From Bacteroidales bacterium (GTDB taxonomy: Bacteria; Bacteroidota; Bacteroidia; Bacteroidales; M50B96), in NCBI GenBank assembly GCA_018401015.1, contig JAGYLP010000002.1:1-64000 (forward strand): a DNA stretch of 64,000 nt, in the 5' to 3' direction. The translations under genes were made by a program, and so were the position numbers. The notes under the pieces were generated by a model. It ran no database searches. It was not told the DNA's origin and worked only from the letters and a program-made list of their open reading frames with translations. This document shows, piece by piece, positions 22,863-25,717 of this stretch; the stretch's first letter is position 1; each line of letters starts with the position of its first letter.

Positions 22863-22932
22863 TTCAGTATTTTTATTAAACCGGACAACTTATTCGCCCA
22901 ACAACTTGTCTTCCCAAAAATCCTAAAAGCGA

Positions 22933-23508
22933 ATGCTTGATGATCGACACTTTATCAAAGATTGCATCGAGAATAAGCCGGGAGCAATAGATCGCTTGTA
23001 TAAACGATATGCTCCGATGCTTTTTGGTATTTGTTTAAGGTATGCCGCATCAAATCAAGAAGCAGAAGACATTCTTCACGATGGATTTGTGAGAATTATG
23101 AAACACCTCCGTGAATTTCGAGGGGAAGGATCCTTCGAAGGTTGGTTGAAAAAAATTATGGTGAATACAGCAATTAATCAGTACAGAAAAAATCAGGCAG
23201 GGTTTGGAGTGGTCTCACTCGACGATTATCACCATGCTCCTTCGCACGAGGATGACCTCGTCGATCAAATCGCGGCTCAAGAACTTTTTGCACTGGTAAG
23301 CGCGATGCCCGAAGGATACCGACAAGTATTCAACCTGTTTGCAATCGAAGGATATCGTCATAAAGAAATTAGTGAAATGCTTGGAATTAGTGAAAGCACC
23401 TCCAAAACCCAATTCCTAAAAGCAAGAAAATACCTCATACAGCAGCTAATGCAGTTAAAGTCCATGGAAATGGATTCGTATAAATCTAAAAGGGATGCCC
23501 ACGAATGA
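22933..23508 (+). CDS. ECF-type RNA polymerase sigma factor
   Basis: The 191-residue protein has sigma region 2 (AIDRLYKRYAPMLFGICLRY...AEDILHDGFVRIMKHLREFRGEGSFEGWLKKIMVNTAINQYR) and region 4 (ALVSAMPEGYRQVFNLFAIEGYRHKEISEMLGISESTSKTQFLKARK). It lacks regions 1 and 3, as ECF factors do. The stop overlaps the next start by 4 bp (ATGA), so it is made together with the membrane protein at 23505, the likely anti-sigma partner. Confidence 0.93.
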   Translation: MLDDRHFIKDCIENKPGAIDRLYKRYAPMLFGICLRYAASNQEAEDILHDGFVRIMKHLREFRGEGSFEGWLKKIMVNTAINQYRKNQAGFGVVSLDDYHHAPSHEDDLVDQIAAQELFALVSAMPEGYRQVFNLFAIEGYRHKEISEMLGISESTSKTQFLKARKYLIQQLMQLKSMEMDSYKSKRDAHE

Positions 23509-25172
23509 AAGAAGATAAGGAGTGGCTGGGTAGGCTGAATGATAAGCTTGGAAGCATGGAGTTTAATCCTCCTGAACAGGTGCTGGCAAAACTTGAACGG
23601 GAATTTACTGTACCAAAAGAATCTGCTTCCTCATCATCATTCAAAACAAAGATATTTGTCGCCGGAGCACTTCTCCTTCTTGGGGTAGCGACTTATTTCT
23701 GGTGGCCTTCAACTACTCTTCAACCCTCTGAACCGACTGGCTCAATCGACTCTCAAAGTTCTCATAATCACAATTTGCCCCAATCAATCATTGTAGATAC
23801 TACCTCCAACGTATCGAATTTGCCTCCTACTGAGTCGAATGCGTCGACTGAACCATCTCACTATCCTAAAAATCTACGGCTAGCTCCTGCCTATGCCGGT
23901 AACGATACGGTAATCTGTGGAACAAGCTATCAATTAATGGCAGCTAAGCAAAACAAAAAGGCCAATGCTTATTGGAAAACGGACAATGCCGGGGTAAGTT
24001 TCCTATCCAAAACGGAGGACCTTCCACATCACGATCCCAATGCGATTATTCAGGTCGAAAATCCTGGTGAAGTAGTCCTTTATTGGGTAGAAGAGATGGG
24101 GGAAAATGTGGTAAGCGATCCGATTCGAATAGAATTTCGCTTGCTCACCGCTGAACCACTCGCCGATGAACGGCAGGTTTGCGGAATGGAATTGAAACTC
24201 CCAATCGATTTTGCTCAAGGACAGCTATGGGTTTCCTCACCGTTGAGCCTGGATACCTTAACGACCGGGGAATTGAGTGTTAAAAGCCAAATGCCGGGTG
24301 ATTTTTACCTATACCGTACCTTAGAAGATGGTACTTGCCTCCTAAAGGATTCGATGCAATTGAAATTTCTTGAGCTACCACTTGCTCAACTTCTACTTCC
24401 GCAGGCGCCGAAATGCTCGTATGACAAGGTGCTCATTCAAGCTTCTTATCATGCCGAAAATTATTATTCATGGAGCTTTGGTCGCCTCGAGACCAGTCAG
24501 TTTAATGAGTATTCCTACGAAGTGCAATGGCTCGAAAGGGCTCAGAAACCTACGGTTCACCTGGAGGTAACTAGTCCCAATGGATGCAAGTCTGTCGATA
24601 GCCTGCAGATCGATTTCCCCGAATCGATCGAGGCCTCCTTCGAAATGGCTCTCGAACAGGAATCCGCCCCCACCATGGCCTATTTTACCAATCGAACCAC
24701 CCTTGGCGGAAGAGAGGTTTCTTTAGATTCTTTCGAGTATCACTGGGAATTTGGCGACGGAGAAGGCTCGCATCTGGAACACCCCGACCACTTGTACAAG
24801 AATCCAGGAACCTACGCTGTTCAGTTAGTTGCCAAAAATCATGAGAATTGTGTGGATACCTTCCAATTGGAAGAGCTAAGTCTAATCACTGAGAATACTT
24901 TGGCCATTGCTAAGTTTTTTACGCCCAATGGCGACAATAAAAATGATGTCTTCGATTTTCAGGCCGATCACATCGATCAATTCATCGCTATCATTTTAAA
25001 TGCATCAGGTGAAAAGGTGTATCAATGGAGCAAAGGAGAACCCGGGTGGGATGGGACCTTGCCAGGTGGAAGTCCTGCTGCAGAAGGAAGTTACTACTAT
25101 GTGATTCGCGGTATCGACCAATTCGGAAATGCATTTGAAACTCCGGGATTGGTTTACCTCATCCGAAATTAA
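23505..25172 (+). CDS. Putative membrane anti-sigma factor with PKD and gliding-motility/T9SS-type C-terminal domains
   Basis: The 555-residue protein starts with about 48 cytoplasmic residues containing a short helical motif (WLGRLNDKLGSMEFNPPEQVLAKLE). This resembles the N-terminus of small Bacteroidota anti-sigma factors (xKLxxxExxPPxxVWxxI). One membrane span follows (about residues 50-67, IFVAGALLLLGVATYFWW) with no clear signal peptidase site after it. The periplasmic part has a Ser/Thr/Pro linker, Ig-like regions with cysteines, a PKD domain (YHWEFGDGEGSHLEHPDHLYKNPGTY) and an end (KFFTPNGDNKNDVF...GWDGT...GSYYYVIRG) matching the gliding-motility-associated C-terminal domain, a T9SS type B sorting signal. 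The overlap with the sigma gene supports an anti-sigma role; this is inference. The stop overlaps the Rieske-like gene's stop. Confidence 0.75.
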   Translation: MKEDKEWLGRLNDKLGSMEFNPPEQVLAKLEREFTVPKESASSSSFKTKIFVAGALLLLGVATYFWWPSTTLQPSEPTGSIDSQSSHNHNLPQSIIVDTTSNVSNLPPTESNASTEPSHYPKNLRLAPAYAGNDTVICGTSYQLMAAKQNKKANAYWKTDNAGVSFLSKTEDLPHHDPNAIIQVENPGEVVLYWVEEMGENVVSDPIRIEFRLLTAEPLADERQVCGMELKLPIDFAQGQLWVSSPLSLDTLTTGELSVKSQMPGDFYLYRTLEDGTCLLKDSMQLKFLELPLAQLLLPQAPKCSYDKVLIQASYHAENYYSWSFGRLETSQFNEYSYEVQWLERAQKPTVHLEVTSPNGCKSVDSLQIDFPESIEASFEMALEQESAPTMAYFTNRTTLGGREVSLDSFEYHWEFGDGEGSHLEHPDHLYKNPGTYAVQLVAKNHENCVDTFQLEELSLITENTLAIAKFFTPNGDNKNDVFDFQADHIDQFIAIILNASGEKVYQWSKGEPGWDGTLPGGSPAAEGSYYYVIRGIDQFGNAFETPGLVYLIRN

Positions 25173-25606
25173 TTATACACTCTCAAGGTATAGCCATCGA
25201 AATAGGTGCGATATCGTTTTAAAGGATAAGTGGCCACTCCTTCGCTGACAGATCCATCCAGTAATAGAAATTTTGTTCCACAACAGGCTGTATCGACTGC
25301 GAACAGTTTTGTTTCATCCACATACACCTTGCAGTTTTCATTTACATCGTGGGTACAAGTGCGATCGTAGGCAGCAAATTCATCTTGCGAAATTCGATAG
25401 ATAATGATGCCATTCACCCCACCGGTTACCGTAAGTGAATTCCCGGGAATGGTAAGCGAATTGAACTCCGGATCCATCAGCCTGATACTGAAATCGACAT
25501 AAACATTTGGGACAACCTGATGTGCTGAATCGCAGGCATTTAAGGTGAAAAGTATAAGCGAAATGCCAAGGATATACCGAATAAATTGGAAGGAAAAAGT
25601 TTTCAT
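25169..25606 (-). CDS. Rieske-like lipoprotein with an altered second metal box
   Basis: From the ATG at 25606 the protein has 145 residues: a lipoprotein signal (ILFTLNAC, lipobox Cys25), then a Rieske-like fold with box 1 CTHDVNENC (Cys84, His86, Cys92) and box 2 ACCGTKF (Cys108-Cys109). In classic Rieske proteins box 2 is CPCHGS; here the first Cys is Thr and the His ligand is Cys. A normal 2Fe-2S Rieske cluster is therefore doubtful. It is probably anchored in a membrane facing the periplasm. The frame is open to 25696, but the lipoprotein signal begins at 25606. Function unknown. Confidence 0.7.
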   Translation of the reverse strand: MKTFSFQFIRYILGISLILFTLNACDSAHQVVPNVYVDFSIRLMDPEFNSLTIPGNSLTVTGGVNGIIIYRISQDEFAAYDRTCTHDVNENCKVYVDETKLFAVDTACCGTKFLLLDGSVSEGVATYPLKRYRTYFDGYTLRVYN

Positions 25607-25717
25607 TCGGAAGGGTGTAAGAAACATGAAAAAAAGCTTAGTTTTAGTAATCTTAAATCTATTATTGTAACGCAATAAGGATTCAACTAGTATCAACCGC
25701 TAAAATACGATAAATAC

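Follow-up and report, generated by a model that had tools for sequence, protein, structure and literature searches.

What does an ECF sigma factor gain from a partner that ends like a protein destined for T9SS secretion? The question is raised by two overlapping genes in a Bacteroidales genome, within a stretch of 64,000 nucleotides (contig JAGYLP010000002.1, positions 1 to 64,000; hereafter the window). Answering it involves the layout of the two proteins, the history of the partner's tail, and the genes that share the promoter pattern found in front of the sigma gene.

The sigma gene and its membrane-anchored partner

The first gene of the pair (22933..23508, +) encodes an ECF sigma factor of 191 aa, and its orthologues are found beside the same partner in other genomes. 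The domain search identifies sigma-70 regions 2 and 4 but not region 3 (Sigma70_r2, PF04542, at residues 22-88, E 1.6e-19; Sigma70_r4_2, PF08281, at residues 116-168, E 6e-14), and TIGR02937 scores 98.9 bits on the same ORF. The sigma stop overlaps the partner start by 4 bp (ATGA, 23505-23508), as the preliminary description of this DNA had reported, and both ORFs are confirmed. An exodeoxyribonuclease III-like gene lies upstream of the pair in the window and in genomes G071 and G087. On the opposite strand, 3′ of the partner (25169-25696, −), there is a small ORF that resembles a lipoprotein and carries a Rieske-like CTHD...CC pattern.

The partner gene (23505..25172, +) encodes 555 aa and is annotated as an anti-sigma factor with a T9SS-type tail from its ORF, its domain matches, an N-terminal HMM and an AlphaFold model. 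Residues 1-45 (23505..23639, +) form a cytoplasmic candidate sigma-binding segment with a PP..VL..I motif and two short helices, which the model places at residues 2-15 and 24-34. Hydropathy and the model agree on an inner-membrane helix at residues 46-65 (23640..23699, +), and this is followed by a probably disordered periplasmic tether at residues 66-187 (23700..24065, +), with pLDDT below 50 over most of 58-189 and beta domains beyond about residue 187. A PKD domain occupies residues 408-451 (24726..24857, +; PKD_4, PF18911, E 6e-11) and a T9SS type B-like C-terminal domain (CTD) residues 462-555 (24888..25169, +), where CHU_C (PF13585) matches at 468-536 with E 1.4e-13 and 51.2 bits (cut-off 27) and the TIGR04131 type B domain scores 36.6 bits (cut-off 35). 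Both the PKD domain and the gliding-motility-type CTD had been proposed from the letters of the sequence, and the profile searches agree on each. Although the model as a whole is modest (mean pLDDT 63.5), its PKD domain and CTD are confident. Foldseek finds its best matches, of a generic Ig kind, in Ig-type fragments of GhpA, a surface adhesin from Aureispira.

The preliminary description had also proposed one membrane span without a clear cleavage site, and a single helix at 46-65 is what the analysis finds. The conserved segment of about 45 residues ahead of this helix is present in related partners too and therefore does not fit a cleaved signal peptide; judged by hydropathy and conservation, an N-terminal Sec signal peptide of the cargo type is not evident in the partner. 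The cytoplasmic N-terminus had been likened to those of anti-sigma factors, and this likeness holds up in that its family is found beside ECF sigma factors across Bacteroidota. Given this N-terminal family, the conservation of the pair described below and the lack of an evident cleaved signal peptide, the sequence makes the partner very probably a membrane-anchored anti-sigma factor and a candidate sigma binder. The same assignment is favoured by the recurrence, before T9SS cargo genes, of the ECF-type promoter pattern found at the sigma gene.

Conservation of the pair and exchange of its tails

The expectation that other Bacteroidota would carry the same gene pair is borne out at 35 sigma loci from several families, at which the partner ends in CHU_C and has the same domain order. 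The loci were collected by searching for relatives, by scanning the order with a profile and from 80 related sigma factors of named genomes, and cultured Fluviicola chungangensis is among the carriers. The search of relatives places a full-length partner beside an orthologous sigma gene in two genomes of the same family as well as in members of others; since the order keeps the pair outside this family too, the two genes do not stand together by chance. The window's genome (G000) holds a second type B-tailed sigma/anti-sigma pair on contig C67 (L152 / L197; 6843-8757 of L197) with its own promoter-like site, GCAACC...GTCTAG, as well as further pairs with other, probably barrel-type, partners. 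Type A T9SS CTD tails, over the TIGR04183 cut-off, occur within the same sigma clade at L078:4526-6214 and L089:4500-6167. As a separate observation, a 417-aa ORF on contig C34 of the window's genome (L149 / L198; ~3606-4856 of L198) joins an ECF sigma factor to a C-terminal part with a predicted membrane helix and resembles the fusion of sigma and anti-sigma factor described for Dma3; the gene after it seems to encode a separate envelope protein.

Many sister sigma factors have a partner with the same N-terminus and helix that ends in an outer-membrane beta-barrel (PF13568). An HMM of the barrel-type N-termini detects 32 of 35 CTD-type N-termini with a median of 27 bits (shuffled sequences reach at most 8.6), and in the reverse search the CTD-type HMM detects all 27 of 27 barrel-type N-termini. 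The window's own N-terminal segment matches weakly, scoring 15.9 bits with a model of all partners without its family and 9.2 bits with one of the barrel-type partners only, and is tied to the common platform via L002, L003 and further relatives. One barrel-type partner, when modelled, runs from helices through a transmembrane segment and a tether to eight strands, and its nearest solved folds are OmpA/NspA/OmpX-like.

This plan is known from the Dma anti-sigma factors, in which an N-terminal anti-sigma domain is followed by one helix, a long disordered tether and an outer-membrane beta-barrel, with an ECF sigma gene adjacent; the group given for their partner sigma factors is ECF21 (PMC13088901). 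The window partner follows the same order of parts, with a candidate anti-sigma domain at the N-terminus, the single helix (46-65), the long tether (66-187) and the adjacent ECF sigma gene, whereas it carries PKD/Ig domains and a T9SS-type CTD in place of the barrel. Neither the domain search nor the model reveals a C-terminal outer-membrane beta-barrel in the window partner, which has PKD and CHU_C instead, and because this defining part is absent the protein would be a trans-envelope anti-sigma factor but not a member of Dma. The Dma plan is also seen in the barrel-tailed relatives of the window's protein, the likeness being one of plan.

A quick reconstruction of the CTD label on the sigma tree requires at least six changes, three of them forced by well-supported branches. 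In the CTD tree, built on a short domain and with some long branches, the fused CTDs are scattered in several groups between those of cargo, and a single clade is rejected (AU p 0.007). By sequence comparison, barrel and T9SS tails have been exchanged several times on one anti-sigma N-terminus.

The fused CTDs differ from those of cargo at one highly conserved spot. The Trp of the NRWG motif is present in 28 of 37 type B cargo CTDs and in none of the 35 fused anti-sigma CTDs (Fisher 1.7e-12, a value that assumes independent sequences although these are related), and the absence carries weight since it holds in groups that were fused separately. The window CTD reads NASG in place of NRWG, with Ser501 (25005..25007, +) in the alignment column of the Trp, and the rest of the domain is retained, including TPN.D, WDG and G.Y. 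NRWG is common in type B cargo and not strictly required; the Trp appears to have been lost after fusion. Because it is missing in every fused CTD, the tail is probably unlike an ordinary secreted CTD. A 2025 study of the SprB CTD reports that its secretion depends on each of five conserved type B motifs (PMC12618676), of which NRWG may be one; given this, the departure of the fused CTDs means that their engagement with T9SS is not assured. Compared with T9SS type B cargo (TIGR04131/CHU_C, e.g., SprB and PG1035), the window partner has a C-terminal domain of the same family but is held in the membrane and shows no evident cleaved signal peptide, has Ser501 at the Trp position and lacks an adjacent PorP/SprF gene in the window.

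The promoter pattern and candidate target genes

An ECF-type promoter candidate, ACAAC-N16-TTGTCTT, precedes the sigma gene at 22885..22912 (+), with a −35-like element at 22885-22889 and a −10-like element at 22906-22912, and autoregulation is probable on the strength of this site. Of 88 related sigma genes, 29 have the shorter pattern CAAC-N18-GTCT within 300 bp upstream, compared with 0.2 in shuffled sequences, and in most of them it lies about 50 bp before the sigma start. The window's clade has the pattern in the form RCAAC-N16-TTGTCTW, located just upstream of the sigma gene, and the sole exact match in the whole 2.88-Mb genome of the window is the one at the sigma gene itself.

The pattern was picked after the sigma promoters had been viewed, and 30 of its sites were read in six genomes. 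Five precede sigma genes and 12 precede genes for secreted proteins, where secreted means that a simple hydropathy rule predicts a signal peptide (one of the 12 after start correction; one match falling within an ORF was set aside). Nine of the 12 secreted targets have T9SS CTDs: eight are type A and over the cut-off, and one is type B, its 32.3 bits falling short of the cut-off of 35 while the CHU_C profile built in this analysis recognises it clearly. The reversed-pattern control gave 0/30 and the wrong-spacing control, run on four of the genomes, 0/9. Two small secreted proteins of similar make-up also stand behind the pattern (L238 in G055 and L209 in G003).

The type B target is a surface protein of ~1,940 residues in G003, with the site 189 bp upstream. 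Orthologues of this protein have one-mismatch sites 282 bp upstream in the window's own genome and 218 bp upstream in G001, and in all three genomes the site sits in otherwise poorly conserved sequence. The orthologue in G002 is without the site, and the sigma/anti-sigma pair was not found in G001, a genome that is 60% complete. One-mismatch matches in the window's genome number 50 against 53 in the control. Since the control does equally well, it is the footprint that supports the own-genome target, and the other one-mismatch sites of that genome were rejected as targets. A PorZ-like gene (L281) was likewise rejected, its one-mismatch site overlapping the coding start. Paralogous sigma factors have similar promoters, so the targets cannot be assigned to this sigma factor alone, and it may be this one rather than a paralogue that reads the RCAAC-N16-TTGTCTW promoters.

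A proposed role in T9SS cargo expression

SprA is encoded in 33 of the 34 genomes carrying the pair, the exception being 82% complete, and T9SS is present in 229 of 296 genomes of the phylum, a base rate too high for co-occurrence to discriminate and to be used as evidence. In one lineage (L110, L122, L130; ~6.05-7.11 kb) a PorP/SprF gene lies directly downstream of the CTD-tailed anti-sigma gene, ~200 bp off, and PorP-type barrels bind type B CTDs (PMC9143113). This adjacency was rejected as a general rule, as it is strict in that lineage, two others have the gene 2-3 genes away, and no PorP/SprF gene stands beside the pair in the window. Membership of the PorP/SprF gene in the regulon was rejected for the L110 group, where no common promoter precedes the gene. 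For Flavobacterium psychrophilum, an ECF/anti-sigma pair is among the T9SS-gene promoters listed (PMC9723704).

With somewhat better than even confidence, the pair is taken to consist of an autoregulated ECF sigma factor and a Dma-like trans-envelope anti-sigma factor, with a T9SS tail in exchange for the barrel, that together control T9SS cargo genes. The N-terminal domain would hold the sigma factor at the inner membrane, and by way of the single helix and the tether of ~120 residues the Ig/PKD domains and the CTD would reach across the periplasm. There the CTD would act as an unreleased decoy docked on an outer-membrane part of T9SS, with a PorP/SprF-type shuttle barrel and the SprA translocon as the likeliest candidates. 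Changed docking would free the sigma factor to transcribe its own operon and T9SS cargo genes, and cargo expression would thereby be coupled to the secretion machinery. Sigma binding, the docking partner and the direction of the signal are what we infer in this scheme. The tail may report on T9SS or on surface contact, the two possibilities raised in the preliminary description, or on gliding.

In the FlgM-FliA flagellar checkpoint, an anti-sigma factor is tied to the secretion machine whose cargo genes the sigma factor controls. FlgM is soluble and exported, whereas the window protein is membrane-anchored and its export is putative. A FlgM-like T9SS checkpoint, in which the decoy tail of the tethered anti-sigma factor reads the occupancy of the shuttle or translocon so that cargo is transcribed only when the machinery is ready, and which arose several times by barrel/T9SS-tail exchange, is a more tentative proposal that we regard as rather doubtful.

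It is unlikely that the CTD-derived domain has no T9SS role at all and belongs to an ordinary periplasmic Ig-like sensor of, e.g., envelope stress or cell-wall state. Such a sensor would accord with the complete absence of the NRWG Trp from the 35 fused CTDs, with the lack of a PorP/SprF neighbour in the window and with the other or unrecognised C-termini of many sister-sigma partners, but would leave the retention of TPN.D, WDG and G.Y, in a domain that still passes PF13585 and TIGR04131, unaccounted for; nor would a generic Ig domain explain why type B and type A T9SS tails have been recruited repeatedly, and the predicted targets are T9SS cargo. Lower still stands the probability of a dual-membrane-spanning surface sensor, its CTD exported via T9SS and its N-terminus cytoplasmic, from which surface contact or tension frees the sigma factor: the missing NRWG Trp, set beside the published need for five CTD motifs in SprB (PMC12618676), speaks against it, even if the long tether and folded domains, the resemblance of the PKD/Ig domains to solved GhpA adhesin fragments and the barrel-tailed relatives built to reach the outer membrane would suit it. 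That an unrelated T9SS cargo gene is co-translated with the sigma gene by chance is highly improbable and was rejected, for a CTD and PKD are typical of cargo but the sigma-linked N-terminal domain is conserved and common to barrel-type partners, an internal helix replaces the signal peptide and the pair is conserved across families.

The favoured reading, a T9SS-tailed anti-sigma factor, has a parallel in Porphyromonas gingivalis, where the T9SS-CTD protein PorA acts upstream of SigP, an ECF sigma factor controlling T9SS genes (PMC7712824). A T9SS-CTD protein acting upstream of an ECF sigma factor is also what is proposed for the window pair; PorA differs in being located on the cell surface and working via a two-component system (PorXY) rather than as an anti-sigma factor. 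No description of a T9SS-tailed anti-sigma architecture was found in the searches, which covered mainly open-access literature, and the architecture is best placed among the trans-envelope anti-sigma factors, as a variant with a T9SS tail.

How Bacteroidota tune the production of T9SS cargo to the state of T9SS is poorly understood, and PorXY-SigP is the best-studied route. An anti-sigma factor bearing a T9SS-type tail, combined with the promoter pattern of its sigma factor before cargo genes, would constitute a direct molecular link between the two, and the presence of the pair in cultured Fluviicola chungangensis offers a testable system. That barrel and CTD tails have been swapped repeatedly suggests that trans-envelope anti-sigma factors are a modular class that is wider than Dma.
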